DNA from: a virus
Virus record (IMG/VR): IMGVR_UViG_3300002514_000038
Location: 26,786 to 50,482 of that record
Direction: 5' to 3' (one strand)
DNA length: 23,697 nucleotides
Shown here: positions 1,729 to 19,813 of the stretch, one piece after another
Position numbering within the stretch: position 1 is the first letter of the stretch
How the letters are laid out: every line of letters starts with the position of its first letter
Made by a program: the position numbers and the translations under genes
Notes under the pieces: generated by a model
What the model saw: only the letters and a program-made list of their open reading frames with translations
Databases searched by the model: none
Told to the model about the DNA's origin: nothing

Positions 1729-2762
1729 GAAATAAAAGTATTTCGTGTATAGTAATCACAAATGGATTAAATAATAGATTTCTCAAGGAGAGAACCTTAT
1801 TTAGCATTTTAAATACCACTAACACAATAGGGTGGGACGTAGAGATTATAGTAGTAGATAATAGTCCCGAACAAAATATTAAAACTATTTTAATAAATGA
1901 AGGATATAATAATGTAATAAGTAAAAGAATAAAGATAATAAATTCATTACCCAATCATTTACCAAAAGCTTTTAATCTTGGAGTAAAAACATCCACTAAA
2001 AAATATATAGCTTTATTTCATGATGACTGTGAAATACTAGATAATAAATGGGTTGAAAAATTAACTAGTGAACTAAATGATGATGTATATGCAGTAGGAC
2101 CAGAACTCCATACAAATGTAACCCCACATAAAATAATAACACAAAAATCATATCTTAAAGAAGTTCCTACTGTATTAGAAAGAGAAAAATTTTTATCCTT
2201 GGGAGGATATGATGAAACTTATTATTGGGGGTTTGAAGATGTGATGTTTTCCGCAAACATATTAAATCAAGGAAAAAACATAAAACAAATTCCAATAGAA
2301 TATGTTCATTTTGATGGCATGTCTACAATTCTACTACAAAGAAAAAATCATCCAAAAGTAGATAAAGATAAGTTTATAGAAATTCAAAATACTTTTGTAG
2401 GGATGAAAAGGAAAGAAGAATTCACCACCCACCAAGACGAAAACATGGAATATTTGGAAGTTAAGATTAAAGATGTAGCGCCTAATAAAGCGATGTATGC
2501 CTCACTTGTAGTCCTTAATAAATCATTTAAGATGAAAATAAGAAAAAATATAGGGGTAAATTTAGGGTATGGACAAACTTTTAAATACTGGAAAAGTGCC
2601 AATATACCTACAGAGGTATTAATAGGGCTGATGCCGAAAACTAAAAATGATATAGAAGTTTTAATGAAAGATATCAGAGAAAATAAAGATGGAGAACTTT
2701 ATAGTAGTTTAGAGAAATATAAAGGAGAGATATTTAAAAGATATTTTGAAACTACCCTTTAG
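1722..2762 (+). CDS. Family 2 glycosyltransferase (GT-A fold)
   Basis: A 346-aa protein starting at an ATG inside AAAGGAGGATGG, one of the few starts in the window with a strong Shine-Dalgarno-like sequence, although at very short spacing. The N-terminal part shows a GT-A fold: ISCIVITNG, then VEIIVVDNSP around residue 45, and the ALFHDDCEILD segment around 95-105, where the DD pair replaces the usual D-x-D. The GGYDETYYWGFEDVMFSANI motif near 160-180 is typical of GT2 enzymes (acceptor/catalytic region). The roughly 120 C-terminal residues (from about 220) are not recognised. The gene overlaps the upstream aminotransferase, so co-translation in a sugar pathway is likely. Its 3' end overlaps the convergent M23 gene by 11 nt. 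Confidence 0.85.
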   Translation: MVRNKSISCIVITNGLNNRFLKERTLFSILNTTNTIGWDVEIIVVDNSPEQNIKTILINEGYNNVISKRIKIINSLPNHLPKAFNLGVKTSTKKYIALFHDDCEILDNKWVEKLTSELNDDVYAVGPELHTNVTPHKIITQKSYLKEVPTVLEREKFLSLGGYDETYYWGFEDVMFSANILNQGKNIKQIPIEYVHFDGMSTILLQRKNHPKVDKDKFIEIQNTFVGMKRKEEFTTHQDENMEYLEVKIKDVAPNKAMYASLVVLNKSFKMKIRKNIGVNLGYGQTFKYWKSANIPTEVLIGLMPKTKNDIEVLMKDIRENKDGELYSSLEKYKGEIFKRYFETTL

Positions 2763-3459
2763 CGTTTGGGTCACAGAATTTACCTGCTCTATTTTCCCTC
2801 CCACCAGCAGGAATAGTACCACCATCCTCAATCATATTTATAGGGTTAATTTTATCCTCACCTCTCCAGGTTATATAATGTAAATGAGGACCACCAGAAT
2901 TACCTGCTCCCGGGTCATACTTTGCACCACCGGTTATCCCAATAGGGAAACCCTTAGGTACCTTTAAACCATATAAATTTTCATTAACAACTCTTAAATG
3001 ACAATACCCTACAGCATCACCATTATTACACTGTAGTTTTATAAAACCACCACAGTCACCCTCACCATCACTTGCTTTTGTTATTACACCCGCACATGCA
3101 GAGATTATAGGCTGATTATTTGAAACTCCAGTAGTATCTATATCTATACCTGAATGCATCCTATTAGTACCAGTAGCTGTTCTAAAACCATAACAACTAT
3201 TAATGTACTTAGGTAACCCTAAGAAAGTAGGTATAGGGTATAGTGTTGGAGCATCCTTGTTCTTTTTATATGAATCGGGAATAAAGGATAAGGCCTTTTC
3301 AAACTTTTCCTTACTTAAACGTGATAAAATTTGAAAATCTAGAGCTGTTGGATTCTGTAATCGTTTAACAAGTGCTTTTATTTTCTTTTTAAGTACGTAT
3401 TCCCACGCTTGTTCCGTTATTAATTCTTGGTATTGTTTTTCTGTAAGTTGTATTTCCAC
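2752..3459 (-). CDS. M23-family (LytM/lysostaphin-type) metallopeptidase
   Basis: Encodes a zinc peptidase that would cut peptidoglycan cross-bridges. Zinc ligands are visible as H102 and D106 in RMHSGIDID and the HLH motif (192-194) in GPHLHYITW. The frame is open upstream to an ATG at 3528, but that start would overlap the divergent gp46-like gene and give an odd N-terminus. I chose GTG at 3459 (235 aa) because it yields VEIQLTEKQYQELITEQ, which aligns residue for residue with the N-termini of the lysozyme (22608) and DHH (23177) proteins. An ATATTTAT box sits 19 nt upstream on the same strand. No signal peptide is present. It is one of three minus-strand genes. Family call strong; exact start moderate. 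Confidence 0.88.
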   Translation of the reverse strand: MEIQLTEKQYQELITEQAWEYVLKKKIKALVKRLQNPTALDFQILSRLSKEKFEKALSFIPDSYKKNKDAPTLYPIPTFLGLPKYINSCYGFRTATGTNRMHSGIDIDTTGVSNNQPIISACAGVITKASDGEGDCGGFIKLQCNNGDAVGYCHLRVVNENLYGLKVPKGFPIGITGGAKYDPGAGNSGGPHLHYITWRGEDKINPINMIEDGGTIPAGGRENRAGKFCDPNAKG

Positions 3460-3478
3460 TTCATATTGATTTATACTA

Positions 3479-3486
3479 ATAAATAT
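3479..3486 (-). promoter_or_regulatory. ATATTTAT box upstream of the M23 gene
   Basis: The minus strand reads ATATTTAT, ending 19 nt before the proposed GTG start at 3459. It is one of nine such boxes (one with a mismatch) found close to starts on both strands. Candidate phage promoter core or A/U-rich initiation element. Confidence 0.35.
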
Positions 3487-3489
3487 ACG

Positions 3490-3503
3490 ATATTTTACAT
3501 ATG
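3490..3503 (+). promoter_or_regulatory. 14-nt start context shared with the aminotransferase gene
   Basis: ATATTTTACATATG, ending in the ATG of the gp46-like gene, repeats exactly the sequence before the aminotransferase start at 527-540. Confidence 0.4.
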
Positions 3504-5828
3504 GAAATAGATAAATTAGAAAACCCATTTATTAAGGTAACATGGGATGATATACCAGAAAATTTTACTCAGGAACGGATAAAAAGAGTTAGGAGTTACT
3601 TCCAGAATAAGTATAATTCTAAAAATGTGACGGTTTTAACTCGAGGAATTGATAGAAAATCTGGTAAGGAACTCGATATAGACTTGGAACAAAATGTTAT
3701 GGACCCAATATATCAAAGAAAGTTGATGTCACAATTTGTAATGGCAAATGATATTGGTGCAGATATTAAATTATTAAAAAGATTAGATGATAAAGTAAAT
3801 GCAAAAATATCTGACGAACTAGAAATAGATACTAAATATAAAAGAGTTTATATTAAAAATATAAAATTTTCTAATTTTCTATCCTTTGGTGATGGTAACA
3901 TAGTAGATTTTAATAAATTAGGTGGAATCAGTGTAATCGACTCCAACCCCCCAAACTTCGGAGGTAAATCAGTGTTAGCGGTAGATTTAATATTATTCTT
4001 ATTTTTTAATACCACAACTAAAACAACTAAAGCTATGGACATCTTTAATAGATTTAGAAAATCTAATGAAGTATTAGTGCAAGGAGAAGTGGAAATAGAT
4101 GGTAATGATTATATAATAGTTAGAAAAATTAAAAGAAGAAAAACTAAAAAAGGTGATTGGTCAGTTAGTACTAGTTTAGAATTTTTAGAAAGAAAAAAAG
4201 ATGGGTCTTTACAAAATTTTACCGGAGAACAAAGACGTGAAACCGAGAAATTCATAAAAGAGTCTATTGGTACAATGAATGACTTTCTACTAACTGTACT
4301 GTCCACAGCAGGCAATCTAGAGTCACTGATAGACTCAAAACCCACAGAAAGAGGTAATATTCTAAGTAGATTTATAGGATTAGAAATTTTAAAGGATAAA
4401 GAGGATGTGTGTAAGAAAATGTACTCAGAATGGTCCAAAAAACTTATTTCTAATGTCTATAATACAGAAGAATTAAAAGAAGAAATAATAACATCACAGG
4501 AAGAAAAAGATAATCTATTAGAGATAACCATAAATCACCAAAAGGAACTAAACACAATAGTTACCCAACTTAAAAAAAAGAATAATTCTAGAGACGAATT
4601 AATAAGTCAAAAAAACACTGATATAGAGATAGAGATACAAAAGGTAAATCCTCGTCTTATAAAAGAAAATATTACTAACCATACCACTGATTTAGAATTA
4701 TTAAATAAAAAATTAACTGTGTATGGTGATAGTGAAAAACCAGACAGTGCAGACTTAGAGTTATTGAAAAATAAAAAAATAGAACTCAACACATTAATTT
4801 TAGAGAAAACTACCGATAACGCTAATTTGAGGAATGTAAATAAAACTACGAAAGAATTAGAAGAATCTGAAATATGTCCTTTATGTAAAAGAAATTTAGA
4901 TGATGTTGACCACAGTAACGAAATTAAAAAATTAAAGACTAAAATAACCAAACTTACTACCACTATAGATAAAAATAATAAACTTATAGAGAAATTAGAA
5001 AAATCAATTGATTTATTAGAATCTAAAAAAATAGTTTTTTATGAGTATGAAAAAGAGATTTTAAAAAAAGAAAGATTGGTATTAGAAATAGGACAAAAAG
5101 AATTAGTTATTACTAAATTAAAAGATAAATTAATAAAATGGAAAGAAAATAAAGAGAAGTTAGAGAAGAATGCAGAGATAGAGAAAAAAATATTAAGTTT
5201 AAATTCACAGTTAGATATATTAGAAACTAATAAGGATAAATTTTTTAGAGAAATAGAAACTTATAGTAATAGAATAAAAAATATTGATATTTTAGTTTCT
5301 GAACATATTATTAAGATAGATAAGATTAAAAAAGAGAATGACGTTAATAAAGTTTTTAGGGCTTATTTAACAGTATTTGGTAAGAATGGTATTATAAAAA
5401 CTATAGTTAAAAGTGTCGTACCTAAGTTAAATAATGAACTAATGAGGTTATTATCGGATGTTACTAATTTTATGGTAGAAATAAAAGTTAATGACAAAAA
5501 TGAAGTAGAATTCTGGATGGTAGATAACAACACAAATGTAGAAAAACTTTTAGCTAGTGGAAGCGGGTTTGAAAAAACATTAGCGTCTTTAGCTATTAGA
5601 ACAGTATTAACCAAAGTATCTTGTTTACCTAGACCGAATATAACAGTATTTGATGAGGTACTGGGGAAGGTCAGTAATGAAAATCTAGACCAAGTAGGGG
5701 TATTTTTTAAGCGAGTCAAAGAGTATTTTGAAAATATATTTTTAATAACACATAATCCTTTAGTAAGAGAATGGGCAGACAATATCGTAACTATTAATAA
5801 AGAAAATAATATTTCTAAGCTCAAATAA
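3501..5828 (+). CDS. gp46/SbcC/Rad50-like recombination ATPase subunit
   Basis: A 775-aa SMC-like ATPase. Visible are a Walker A-type loop N-F-G-G-K-S (K156), long coiled-coil arms, a zinc-hook CPLC (459-462), a divergent ABC signature A-S-G-S-G-F-E-K-T-L-A-S-L around 685-697, and Walker B TVFDEVLG with D718/E719. In T4, gp46 pairs with the nuclease gp47 for end resection, recombination-dependent replication and host DNA breakdown. It is longer than T4 gp46 (about 560 aa), partly because some 110 residues precede the usual N-terminal strand (here YKRVYIKNIKFSNFLSFG). No gp47-like phosphoesterase is visible nearby. The A-T-rich start has no Shine-Dalgarno site. Family call is strong; the N-terminal extension is unassigned. 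Confidence 0.9.
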   Translation: MEIDKLENPFIKVTWDDIPENFTQERIKRVRSYFQNKYNSKNVTVLTRGIDRKSGKELDIDLEQNVMDPIYQRKLMSQFVMANDIGADIKLLKRLDDKVNAKISDELEIDTKYKRVYIKNIKFSNFLSFGDGNIVDFNKLGGISVIDSNPPNFGGKSVLAVDLILFLFFNTTTKTTKAMDIFNRFRKSNEVLVQGEVEIDGNDYIIVRKIKRRKTKKGDWSVSTSLEFLERKKDGSLQNFTGEQRRETEKFIKESIGTMNDFLLTVLSTAGNLESLIDSKPTERGNILSRFIGLEILKDKEDVCKKMYSEWSKKLISNVYNTEELKEEIITSQEEKDNLLEITINHQKELNTIVTQLKKKNNSRDELISQKNTDIEIEIQKVNPRLIKENITNHTTDLELLNKKLTVYGDSEKPDSADLELLKNKKIELNTLILEKTTDNANLRNVNKTTKELEESEICPLCKRNLDDVDHSNEIKKLKTKITKLTTTIDKNNKLIEKLEKSIDLLESKKIVFYEYEKEILKKERLVLEIGQKELVITKLKDKLIKWKENKEKLEKNAEIEKKILSLNSQLDILETNKDKFFREIETYSNRIKNIDILVSEHIIKIDKIKKENDVNKVFRAYLTVFGKNGIIKTIVKSVVPKLNNELMRLLSDVTNFMVEIKVNDKNEVEFWMVDNNTNVEKLLASGSGFEKTLASLAIRTVLTKVSCLPRPNITVFDEVLGKVSNENLDQVGVFFKRVKEYFENIFLITHNPLVREWADNIVTINKENNISKLK

Positions 5829-7696: not shown

Positions 7697-9259
7697 ATGA
7701 AAAAAAGACTATTTCCTTCTATTGTTGCGTTGGCAGCATTATCTGTGGCTGGGTCCGCAGCTTTCTACTCTGTATTTGGTTTAAGTAAATTATTTGCAGG
7801 AGCTAGTACTGAAGTAATTATAATGGCAGGTTCACTTGAATTTGCTAAATTAGTAGTTGCGTCATTATTATACCAGTACTGGGACACAATAAATAAAATA
7901 TTAAAAGGCTATCTCATGATAGCCTGTTTTGTTTTAATGGTAATAACATCAGGTGGTATATATGGATTTTTATCTGGAGCCTATCAATCAACTGCTACAC
8001 AATCAGAGTTATTAGACAAGTCACTTGTAATACTTGAACATAAACAAACTAGATTTACTGAAACTAAAGATGACCTAACACTTGAGAAGACTCAAATAAA
8101 TCAATCAATATCAGATTTAAGAATATCATTATCAAACCCACATCAAGTGTCATGGTATGATAAAAATTCTGAAACAGTAATCACATCATCATCTAGTTCT
8201 GCAAGAAGAGCATTACAAGCAGAATTAAAAACTACAATAGCAGATAGAGATAACCTAAACTTAAAATTAGAAGCTATATTAGATTCAATAAGTAAAACAG
8301 ATATAGCTTTACTAGAAAAAGAAATAGATAATGAAGGCCAAAGAGAATTAGGTCCATTAAAATATCTAGCATCAACAACTGGGTGGCCAATGGACAAGGT
8401 TGTCAATTACTTTTTACTTTTAATTATATTTGTATTTGACCCTCTAGCAATAGCACTTGTAGTAGCGGCTAATATGGCATTTGCACAGTTAACCCCTAAA
8501 CGTAAAGAAGAAGATTATTTTACATCTAGAAATGAACATCTAGAAAAAATAATAGAAATGGAACCACCAGTAGGACTACGAGAAGATAATACAACTCAAC
8601 CATCTGAATCTCTCAAACAACGAGTAAAAGAAAATCAGGAGAAATTAAAAAAAATAGATGAAGACTATTTTAGTGATTTAGAAGGGTATATAAAATATAC
8701 TAGAGAAGAAGATATAGAGAACTTAACCTACCCCCAATTCATAGAAAAACATTATCCTAAATCAGAAACAACAATAAATACCTATGGGGATGATGATTGG
8801 GCAACCCCACAAGTTAGTAAAGAAGATAAAGAGAAAACAAAATTAATAACTTCTACTGATGAGTTAACAGAAGAAGAGATTGATGAGATTAGTAGAGAAA
8901 TTGGTAAAACAGAAACAACAGATGAACCAACACCAATAAACCCAACCGAAGAAGAGCTTGAGAAATTAGAAGAAATACTAGAAGAACCCAAACCCATAGA
9001 GCCAACTAAAAAAGACCTTGAGAAATTATCTAAAGCTCTTAATATTAAGTATGATGACGAGATTGGTGACATAGACCGATTAACAGATACGACACAAACC
9101 CTAATTGTTAAAACCAAAAAAGAAGAGGATGATATAAAAGTTATTAAGTCAGAAGATGATTTGGAAGAAGAACCAACAATTACTGTAGAAGAATGGAATA
9201 ATATGTCTGAAAAAGAATATGAAAACAAAATACTTACATACAAAGGAAGGAAAAAATAG
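7697..9259 (+). CDS. Large membrane protein with coiled coil and acidic repetitive tail
   Basis: A 520-aa protein. Two or three transmembrane segments lie near residues 5-32, 36-60 and 70-95. A coiled-coil-rich segment follows (about 100-210), then another membrane segment (VVNYFLLLIIFVFDPLAIALVVAANMAFA, about 236-265) and a 250-residue charged cytoplasmic-type tail. The N-terminal GLSKLFAGAS / GSLEFAKLVVASLLYQYW pattern recalls a conserved but uncharacterised membrane protein of marine myoviruses. The tail has near-repeats (EEELEKLEEILEEPKPIEPT and KKDLEKLSKALN). An internal hairpin plus T-rich stretch lies at 7906-7935. It ends inside the amidase-like gene (41-nt overlap). Possible roles include host-membrane takeover; none is established. 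Confidence 0.85.
   Translation: MKKRLFPSIVALAALSVAGSAAFYSVFGLSKLFAGASTEVIIMAGSLEFAKLVVASLLYQYWDTINKILKGYLMIACFVLMVITSGGIYGFLSGAYQSTATQSELLDKSLVILEHKQTRFTETKDDLTLEKTQINQSISDLRISLSNPHQVSWYDKNSETVITSSSSSARRALQAELKTTIADRDNLNLKLEAILDSISKTDIALLEKEIDNEGQRELGPLKYLASTTGWPMDKVVNYFLLLIIFVFDPLAIALVVAANMAFAQLTPKRKEEDYFTSRNEHLEKIIEMEPPVGLREDNTTQPSESLKQRVKENQEKLKKIDEDYFSDLEGYIKYTREEDIENLTYPQFIEKHYPKSETTINTYGDDDWATPQVSKEDKEKTKLITSTDELTEEEIDEISREIGKTETTDEPTPINPTEEELEKLEEILEEPKPIEPTKKDLEKLSKALNIKYDDEIGDIDRLTDTTQTLIVKTKKEEDDIKVIKSEDDLEEEPTITVEEWNNMSEKEYENKILTYKGRKK
7906..7935 (+). terminator. Intragenic hairpin with T-rich tail (possible attenuator)
   Basis: AGGCTATC (7906-7913), loop TCAT, GATAGCCT (7918-7925), followed by GTTTTGTTTT. 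This is the shape of an intrinsic terminator, but it lies about 210 nt inside the 7697 coding region. It may reduce transcription through the long gene, or be a coincidence of coding sequence. Confidence 0.4.
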
Positions 9260-17044: not shown

Positions 17045-18220
17045 ATGAACACACAAATGACATTATTTGACAATATAAAAGAACAAGGGACCTTCAATTT
17101 TGACGAGGCAAAACAAAAACTCATCGATAATTTAGACATGCTTAAAGAAATGTCTGTAGAAGAACAAACACTTTATAAAAAGTGGCAAGAAATGAATAAG
17201 GGTGGTAAGATGGCCAAGATAAAGAACAAATTATACACATACCGATATAATCTATGGTTACCATCAGATTTAGATAATTTAGAAAAGACTATAAAACAAA
17301 TTGAAGACTTAGAGCCTTATGTAGAACTAGCAGAACCAGGAAAAGGTGTTACTGAATGGGTAAACTATCGTAAACTTATCCATACAATGGAATGGGTTGC
17401 AAATCCGGGAAGAAATATGAAATTCTGGGTTAGAGATAGGAAAACGGATAAAGTCCTAGGATTGATTTGTTTGGGGTCTGACGTTACCAGTATTAAAGTA
17501 AGAGATGCCTATATAGGGTGGGATAAAGTTAATAAATTCGACCAACATAAATTAAATTGTACAGCAATTGCTACCACTATATGTAGTACACAACCAGGTG
17601 GTTATAATATGTTAATGGGTAAATTAATTGCTGCATTAACTACATGTAAGGTTATTAGAGATGCATGGGAAGAAAAATATGGAGATAAATTAATTGCAGT
17701 AGGAACCACATCATTATATGGAGTACACTCAATGTACAACGGAATGCCTCATTTTAAAACACTTGGAGAGACTACAGGGCAAGTTAGATTAAAACCAGAT
17801 GATGAGGTTTATTTACCCTGGAATACTTGGTTAAAAGAAAACCATCCAGAAGAACATAAGAAAGCAATAAACGCTACAGGGCCTAAACAGAATGTCATTA
17901 ACAAGGTTTTTAAGCATTGTGGTATAAAACCTTCACAATATGACCACGGGTTCAAGAGAGGGGTTTATATTGCAATGATGTATGAAAATGGTAATGAATT
18001 CTTGAGAGGGGAGATAGAAGAAAAAGCTTTAAAATTAAAACAAAAATTTGAAGAAGACGTACCATATACTGAAAGATGGTGGAAGAAAAAAGCGGTTAGA
18101 AGATATAAAAATATGTATGACCAAGACAGAATTAAACCAGAACAATTATTTTATTGGGATGTAATTGATTTATCTTGGGAGGATACACAAGAGAAATATA
18201 TAAAAGAGGTTGGAAGATGA
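17045..18220 (+). CDS. DUF4338/DruA-like protein
   Basis: A 391-aa protein. The middle shows a conserved pattern, KFWVRDRKTDKVLGLICLGS (about 121-140), then VRDAYIGWD (about 155), LNCTAIATTICSTQPGGYNM, LMGKLIAALTTCKVIRDAWEEKYGDKLIAVGTT and LGETTGQVRLK. This order (own-residue strand, RD-x-IGW, N-x-x-T-x-L/I, then GxTTG) matches my recollection of DUF4338, the family of DruA in the Druantia anti-phage system. Phage copies exist but their function is not known to me. It ends at TGA within the ATGA shared with the next gene. The start follows ATAAATATTTTTATT, a variant of the box. Family call moderate. Confidence 0.55.
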   Translation: MNTQMTLFDNIKEQGTFNFDEAKQKLIDNLDMLKEMSVEEQTLYKKWQEMNKGGKMAKIKNKLYTYRYNLWLPSDLDNLEKTIKQIEDLEPYVELAEPGKGVTEWVNYRKLIHTMEWVANPGRNMKFWVRDRKTDKVLGLICLGSDVTSIKVRDAYIGWDKVNKFDQHKLNCTAIATTICSTQPGGYNMLMGKLIAALTTCKVIRDAWEEKYGDKLIAVGTTSLYGVHSMYNGMPHFKTLGETTGQVRLKPDDEVYLPWNTWLKENHPEEHKKAINATGPKQNVINKVFKHCGIKPSQYDHGFKRGVYIAMMYENGNEFLRGEIEEKALKLKQKFEEDVPYTERWWKKKAVRRYKNMYDQDRIKPEQLFYWDVIDLSWEDTQEKYIKEVGR

Positions 18221-18436: not shown

Positions 18437-19813
18437 ATGAAAGATAGTAATATAGATTCGGATTGGGGAGTAATAGAATCAAATGAATTTAAAACGAACC
18501 CAACCCCCAATAAGAGGGTGTGGACCGTAGACAATTTTTACGAAAACCCAGATGAGGTTAGAAATTATGCGTTAAATCAAAACTATTGGGAGGATGGACA
18601 TGGTGGTGTTGGTTGGAGAACTAGAAAACAATTTATATTTGATGGTGTAAAAGAAAAAATTGAATCTATAATGGGTGCCAAAATTACAAATTGGGCTGAT
18701 GTTTATTCTATTTGTGGAGTATTTCAAGCTGGGTTTGGAGGAAGAGATGGTATACCACCCCAAGTCTATCATTGTGATGCCCAACAGTGGGCTGCTATGG
18801 TATTTTTAACACCAGACGCCCCTTTTGAAACAGGGACTAAAATTGTCGCAAATAAAAAATCAAAAATATATCATTCATCCCAAAGCGACAATGTCTTAGA
18901 TTATTTCCCCCAACAGGAAACTTTTTGTGATGGGACCTTATATGAAGATATTGATGTGATGGGTAATGTATACAATAGAATGGTTATTTTTGATGGTCGT
19001 GCTATCCACAGTTCATGTGGGTATTTTGGACATAGTATAGCTACAGGTAGGTTATGGCACATGTTCTTTTTTGATGCAGATATTAATAAAAATAATACTA
19101 CACATGACACACCACCAAGTAAGATAGAAGCAGAAATACCTTCTAATTCTGAATTTGAAGGTGGTAATTGGGGAGAAATTTTACCTTACATAGGTAAGGA
19201 TTACACAACCGCTGTTGAAACTGGTACATATTTAGGTGATACTACAAAATTTCTAATAAGACATTTTAATAAGGTTCATACTATAGAATTAGATGAAGGG
19301 TTATTTAAAGTTGCGGAAAGAAGATTTAAAAATAATAAAAATGTGGTATGTCATTTAGGAGATAGTTCTAAGATTTTAGATGGTGGTTTAATTCGTGAGT
19401 TAAATTTATCTATAGAAGATAAAAAAGTATTTTTTTTCTTGGATGCTCATTGGAGTGGAGATGATAATGTTGATTGGGAAAATTCAGAATGGAAAGGAGG
19501 GTGGAGTTATGCGAGGGGAAAAAATACAGCCCACAGAGGAGATGGTTTAATTCCTAACGCTGTTGAACAAGTTCCTTTAGAAGAAGAAATAATGCATATT
19601 TATAATAATTTTAAAAATGAATGTTTAATATGTGTTGATGATTGGGATAAGATTGGAAAAGATGGTTTTGGGAAAATTAATGAGAAATTTATAGGAGAAG
19701 ATTGGTCCAATATTAATTTTAATCATATCAAAAAACAGATTAACGATAGGTTAATTGAAGAACCTTTTGAAATTGGTAATAATAAATTATTAATAAAATT
19801 AAAGAAAATTTAA
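18437..19813 (+). CDS. Fusion of 2OG-Fe(II) oxygenase-like domain and SAM methyltransferase-like domain
   Basis: A 458-aa two-domain protein. The N-terminal domain (about 28-220) has a 2OG-Fe(II) oxygenase pattern: H112-x-D114 in YHCDAQQWAAMVFLTP, distal H191 in GRAIHSS, and R205 in TGRLWHMFFF, resembling DUF6445-type prokaryotic hydroxylases. The C-terminal domain (about 240-458) has a class I methyltransferase pattern: VETGTYLGDTT (260-270, SAM-binding loop), VHTIELDE around 290, and FFLDAHWSGDD around 333. This could hydroxylate and methylate one substrate. Substrate is unknown; glycan, peptide or nucleobase are all open. It follows the small coiled-coil gene by 1 nt. Domain calls are by motif reading. 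Confidence 0.75.
   Translation: MKDSNIDSDWGVIESNEFKTNPTPNKRVWTVDNFYENPDEVRNYALNQNYWEDGHGGVGWRTRKQFIFDGVKEKIESIMGAKITNWADVYSICGVFQAGFGGRDGIPPQVYHCDAQQWAAMVFLTPDAPFETGTKIVANKKSKIYHSSQSDNVLDYFPQQETFCDGTLYEDIDVMGNVYNRMVIFDGRAIHSSCGYFGHSIATGRLWHMFFFDADINKNNTTHDTPPSKIEAEIPSNSEFEGGNWGEILPYIGKDYTTAVETGTYLGDTTKFLIRHFNKVHTIELDEGLFKVAERRFKNNKNVVCHLGDSSKILDGGLIRELNLSIEDKKVFFFLDAHWSGDDNVDWENSEWKGGWSYARGKNTAHRGDGLIPNAVEQVPLEEEIMHIYNNFKNECLICVDDWDKIGKDGFGKINEKFIGEDWSNINFNHIKKQINDRLIEEPFEIGNNKLLIKLKKI

Follow-up and report, generated by a model that had tools for sequence, protein, structure and literature searches.

The gene at positions 18437 to 19813 of the window (the whole stretch of 23,697 nucleotides analysed here, bases 26786-50482 of an IMG/VR virus record of 50,482 bases) encodes a 458-residue protein in which a predicted 2OG-Fe(II) oxygenase is followed by a predicted class I SAM methyltransferase. 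We propose that this protein is a bifunctional tailoring enzyme that would hydroxylate and O-methylate a glycan or a glycosylated virion (tail-fibre) protein, with both halves acting on one substrate; the probability of this reading is put at roughly 0.5. For the fusion protein we infer activity, metal dependence, order of the steps, substrate and location in the virion. New are the domain order and the partner; phage tailoring enzymes as such are already known. The features of the gene are as follows.

18437..19813, + strand: fusion gene, 458 aa, from ATG at 18437 to stop at 19811-19813 (list of open reading frames)
18476..19087, + strand: 2OG-Fe(II) oxygenase domain, aa 14-217, DUF6445 / phrog_1644 (profiles, AlphaFold2, Foldseek)
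18770..18778, + strand: HxD motif H112-C-D114, presumed iron ligands, invariant in homologues
19007..19009, + strand: H191, distal iron ligand, invariant in homologues
19049..19051, + strand: R205, 2OG-binding arginine, invariant in homologues
19088..19165, + strand: linker, aa 218-243, longer in the related contig L002
19166..19810, + strand: class I SAM methyltransferase domain, aa 244-458 (AlphaFold2, Foldseek, profile)
19217..19237, + strand: motif I, E261-T-G-T-x-x-G267, SAM-binding loop, invariant in 11/11 sequences
19286..19288, + strand: acidic E284 at the end of strand 2 (SAM ribose), invariant in 12/12 and nearly so in the wider set
19442..19450, + strand: D336-A-H338 at the end of strand 4, candidate catalytic or metal site, D336 and H338 invariant in 12/12
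19637..19642, + strand: D401-D402 at the end of strand 5, candidate metal ligands, invariant in the wider set of 18

Predicted folds and conserved residues of the two halves

The initial annotation had described one 458-aa frame with an oxygenase-like domain marked by H112, D114, H191 and R205. The frame is intact, all four residues are in place, and the domain was confirmed by profiles, conservation and fold. The N-terminal half matches the profile of phrog_1644 over its full length (E 2.9e-28, profile positions 9-219 of 220) and Pfam DUF6445 (PF20043) with 29.4 bits, which is above the gathering cut-off of 24. The four residues are unchanged in 37/37 and 34/34 homologues in two alignments; the role of H112-C-D114 as iron ligands is assumed from that of the motif in the superfamily. 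The two domains were folded separately by means of AlphaFold2, and the oxygenase model, which was built on an alignment of 34 rows, has a pLDDT of 87 and a pTM of 0.85. Of the PDB matches listed by Foldseek, all that carry a functional name are 2OG oxygenases (probability 0.99-1.00), namely the PKHD-type 3dkq, SnoN, PHD2, PiuC, OGFOD1 and the proline hydroxylase H11, with TM-scores of 0.36-0.54. A chance match of the motif is excluded, because the residues are invariant across homologues and the folds concur. Judged by sequence and model, the assignment of this half to the 2OG-Fe(II) oxygenases and its likely catalytic competence are well supported. Its substrate is not readable from the fold, which matches solved structures with moderate TM-scores (about 0.4-0.6).

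The databases offer a different label for this family: phrog_1644 is named minor coat protein, and so are RefSeq entries such as NC_015287.1 SSSM7_264 and NC_031935.1 gp157. Taken at its word, the label would make the protein a structural component of the virion with vestigial enzyme folds. However, every aligned homologue retains the iron and 2OG ligands, the gene of phage S-SSM7 lies amid glycosyltransferases, and the papers searched offered nothing in favour of the label. A structural role is hardly credible, and the label is probably a propagated misannotation, since the catalytic residues are invariant and the gene is often found among glycosyltransferases. The literature search for DUF6445 yielded no paper naming the family. 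From the sequences at hand the family looks mainly viral; an origin from a host genome is rejected, because the set of genome contigs contained only nine distant loci (24-31% identity).

In the C-terminal half, the pattern VETGTYLGDTT, IELDE and FFLDAHWSG is present as had been noted, and its motif residues are invariant or nearly invariant in the closer set of relatives. The AlphaFold2 model (pLDDT 82, pTM 0.83) has 616 matches in the PDB with E<1e-3, among them TrmR (1.2e-7), SafC (1.5e-7), COMT, CCoAOMT and KsgA; among viral proteins the best fold match (1e-13, TM 0.67) is to a methyltransferase-domain protein of Iridovirus LCIVAC01. Searching PDB sequences with a profile of 18 relatives gave ErmAM (1e-5) and isoaspartyl methyltransferase (3e-5), and a weak match to COMT (E 0.06-0.13). 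The alignment with COMT ends at W339, which corresponds to COMT residue 143, and D336-H338 would therefore fall near the Asp-His-Trp site on strand 4 of COMT. Over aa 244-458 no Pfam family reached its cut-off (the best was RrnaAD with 12.7 bits versus 24), for which reason no named methyltransferase subfamily is assigned; the FkbM methyltransferase profile (PF05050) did not match the window gene. As a prediction from sequence and model, the assignment to the class I SAM methyltransferases is secure, with a fold nearest to the small O-methyltransferases TrmR, SafC and COMT. With these enzymes the domain shares the fold and the placement of the conserved acids; it differs in that it stays below every Pfam methyltransferase cut-off and in that its metal ligands are candidates. 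The conserved D336, D401 and D402, together with the COMT alignment, suggest a metal-dependent O-methyltransferase. Structure prediction, which had been named as the test that could overturn the annotation, did not do so: the models matched 2OG oxygenases for one half and SAM methyltransferases for the other.

The best PDB match, TrmR, is a tRNA 5-hydroxyuridine methyltransferase, and KsgA and ErmAM match as well. The protein might thus be a nucleic-acid modifier that hydroxylates and then O-methylates a nucleoside, in tRNA (compare ho5U to mo5U) or in phage DNA. Such a role is improbable: SafC, COMT and caffeoyl-CoA O-methyltransferases score about equally, the surroundings of the gene show no sign of nucleoside chemistry, and the partners of homologous oxygenases are glycosyltransferases and sugar-type methyltransferases, not RNA or DNA enzymes. 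Modification of DNA is not supported, as no gene for base modification was identified near the fusion gene and as the listed fold matches of the oxygenase belong to the PKHD, PHD2, PiuC and SnoN types and not to AlkB or TET.

Conservation and origin of the fusion

A search for the fusion elsewhere, as proposed in the initial annotation, identified it in three further contigs. L001 contains an identical copy (100%), L002 a copy with 93% amino acid identity, and L003 a partial copy with 94%; in L004 the methyltransferase end of the fusion is present. An assembly artefact or a read-through is excluded, because the diverged L002 and L003 carry the fusion at a synonymous divergence of 0.15-0.18. 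The Ka/Ks value of the whole gene versus L002 is 0.13, which indicates purifying selection at the level of sequence; the values for the parts are 0.07 (oxygenase), 0.145 (methyltransferase) and 0.33 (linker). Upstream lies an ORF of 86 aa, and the fusion ORF begins one base past its stop.

The domain layout was compared for 100 distinct oxygenase ORFs. The oxygenase is a single-domain protein in 58 and the C-terminal part of a longer protein in 33; six ORFs are truncated at their 5' end, and the three with a long extension behind the oxygenase are the fusions, which form a single lineage. The fusion is therefore rare, but the association of oxygenase and methyltransferase is not. L052 and L053 each encode a TPR-radical SAM-SPASM protein of 732 aa (L052 2050-4245; L053 3070-5265) that ends in the methyltransferase, and the next gene encodes the oxygenase. 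In these two contigs and in L068 the methyltransferase precedes the oxygenase, and the frames, taken from stop to stop, overlap by a few bases. The L052/L053 pair resembles the window protein in both domains (61-79% identity for the 2OG domain, 73-79% for the methyltransferase), in the adjacency of the genes and in the linker, where an IPxxSEF motif is common to IPSNSEFEGGNWGEILPYIGKDYTTAVETG of the window and IPEDSEFDDEKWRRILPYIGKDYTTAVETG, the linker in front of the methyltransferase in the L052 radical SAM protein. In contrast, the window protein is one polypeptide with the opposite order and without TPR and radical SAM domains. A scan of viral contigs for further TPR-radical SAM relatives gave L052 and L053 only. 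The radical SAM gene of L052 is preceded by a gene for a protein of about 350 aa, whose position resembles that of the "beta-mannosyltransferase" or "MGP protein" of named phages and for which no Pfam, PHROG or PDB sequence match was found.

Both trees point to the same relatives. The oxygenase of the window groups with those of L052, L053, L068 and L081-L089 (support 100/97), and the nearest non-fusion relatives of the methyltransferase are L068, L052 and L053, with support of 85/88 that is weaker than for the oxygenase. The fusion requires a rearrangement, because the gene order in the relatives is the opposite; simple loss of one stop codon between neighbouring genes is not supported as its origin. 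As far as can be read from the sequences, the fusion arose by reshuffling of a cassette, and the pairing of the domains is older than the fusion.

That both halves serve one pathway is argued mainly by the occurrence of the same pair in two arrangements. The earlier suggestion of two sequential steps on one target is therefore reasonable in view of the adjacent pairs in L052, L053 and L068; the order of the steps is our reading of the predicted chemistry. Two independent activities with separate substrates could also have been joined by chance, the fusion fixing only their ratio or their location. Neither half would then need the other, as the oxygenase is found fused to many different partners and the methyltransferase also occurs alone in L054 and L058. 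The recurrence of the pair in two arrangements and the conservation of the fusion under selection speak against such a chance joining, which is distinctly unlikely.

Neighbourhoods of related oxygenases and proposed function

The oxygenase of the window belongs with the DUF6445/phrog_1644 proteins of cyanophages and other aquatic phages, with which it shares the full-length match, the invariant residues and a domain identity of 45-50% in many contigs. Those proteins are single-domain enzymes or C-terminal modules; in the window protein the oxygenase is N-terminal, with the methyltransferase behind it. As a C-terminal module the oxygenase is attached to GT17, FkbM and Methyltransf_24 proteins. 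Similar partners are found as neighbouring genes. L083 contains the string TPR-SET-GT2-FkbM-oxygenase, in which the small SET-domain protein (2656-3036, Pfam E 1e-9) may add protein lysine methylation to the same cassette. L005 contains a TPR/GT2-Methyltransf_24-unknown-oxygenase string that adjoins a tail sheath gene. In phage DSL-LC02 the oxygenase lies beside a collagen-like protein, a beta-mannosyltransferase, FkbM and a tail fibre, in S-WAM2 it adjoins tail-fibre genes, and in S-SCSM2R it follows an "MGP protein". The context varies, because the oxygenases of L092, L094 and L100 are located in replication gene regions, the neighbours in the L092 group being DNA polymerase, chaperonin and clamp-loader genes. 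Among the targets that had been considered, namely a glycan, a DNA base or a protein, these neighbourhoods favour a glycan or glycoprotein; a DNA base is unsupported.

A related possibility is that the target during infection is not the virion but a small metabolite or a polysaccharide of the host surface (LPS, capsule). The partners GT17, GT2, FkbM and beta-mannosyltransferase would fit, and cyanophage sugar clusters in which 2OG oxygenases and O-methyltransferases accompany glycosyltransferases have been interpreted as systems for the decoration of capsules or metabolites or for secondary metabolism (PMC7824862). Several homologues, however, lie beside tail-sheath, tail-fibre and collagen-like genes and not beside nucleotide-sugar pathways, and we consider a host target unlikely, if readily conceivable.

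Collagen-like ORFs occur within about 6 kb of 12/77 distinct oxygenase loci, compared to 1/79 loci of tail-sheath genes (Fisher p 0.001) and 0/79 loci of clamp-loader genes (p 0.0001). These figures are rough, because the oxygenase loci were de-duplicated and the control loci were not, the control families stem from overlapping but non-identical sets of phages, and contigs often break at repeats. Thr/Gln-rich Gxy-repeat ORFs near the oxygenase were seen in L009, L012, L014, L017, L018, L020, L031, L034, L060, L114, L119, L129 and L152. In the repeats, Thr makes up 44% of X and 31% of Y, Gln 60% of Y, and Pro and Lys are almost absent. The enrichment is absent from the sub-clade of the window gene, and no collagen-like Gxy repeat was found within the window, which covers only this part of the phage genome. 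Hydroxylation of Pro or Lys of the collagen type is unlikely because the repeats near homologues are almost without these residues; a classical collagen prolyl or lysyl hydroxylase is rejected on this composition and on the lack of repeats in the window. To judge from composition, O-glycosylation of the repeat Thr is possible.

The lysyl hydroxylase-glycosyltransferases, mimivirus L230 and human LH3, are comparable by a works-like analogy only, as a 2OG hydroxylase and a transferase act there on the same polymer (PMC9546862). They differ in that the partner in the window is a methyltransferase and in that the collagen-like repeats near homologues are almost without Lys and Pro. In layout, the GT17-2OG fusions of phages come nearer still.

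In the proposed tailoring reaction, the N-terminal half would use 2-oxoglutarate, Fe(II) and O2 to hydroxylate a C-H position of the substrate, and the COMT-like C-terminal half, probably an O-methyltransferase, would cap a hydroxyl with a methyl group from SAM. The modified glycan or fibre would present a changed surface chemistry to the host and to competitors. On this reading the fusion is a reshuffled form of an aquatic-phage cassette that pairs the oxygenase with glycosyltransferases, methyltransferases and fibre genes. A more specific version holds that one polypeptide makes a methoxy group on a virion fibre or glycan by hydroxylating an unactivated C-H position and O-methylating the new hydroxyl, within a modular family that has interchangeable transferases beside fibre genes; in this full form the idea is speculative and rather unlikely.

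Marine T4-like phages usually have 1-5 2OG oxygenases per genome, and one has 24 (PMC9602691). Their role in T4-like cyanophages has so far been explained by speculation, with regulation of 2-oxoglutarate levels or DNA repair being discussed (PMC3037559). The fusions and neighbourhoods described above point one common phage oxygenase family toward the tailoring of glycans or fibres.

Source phage and further genes of the window

The remainder of the record contains large tail or baseplate-like ORFs, and the window itself has a Rad50-like recombination gene (with a zinc-hook Pfam match below cut-off), a sigma factor and dnaJ. Because of these genes, we infer that the sequence is a fragment of a T4-like phage, as which it reads. 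Within the window, the neighbours of the fusion gene are small ORFs, dnaJ and a DruA homologue; the lack of an adjacent glycosyltransferase or fibre gene counts against the proposed glycan or fibre target. The DruA homologue (17045-18220, Pfam PF14236, E 3e-25) is located just upstream and is 83% identical in L002. DruA belongs to Druantia, a defence system of bacteria.

A DegT aminotransferase (Pfam E 9e-69) and a GT2 glycosyltransferase (E 3e-10) form a pair at 538-2762 that had been suggested as a possible part of the same modification theme. The pair is real; it lies about 16 kb from the fusion gene, and a linkage was not found, a homologue of the aminotransferase being present in one of the 12 records (all partial) with related oxygenase genes. 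In that record, L094, the aminotransferase is 55% identical and an oxygenase of the same family is about 11 kb away.

L002 has two ORFs that the window does not contain. One encodes 342 aa (2897-3922) and lies between the DruA and the 86-aa genes; the other encodes 305 aa (7819-8733) and precedes a lysozyme-like gene. By comparison of the two sequences, this difference is one of local gene gain or loss.
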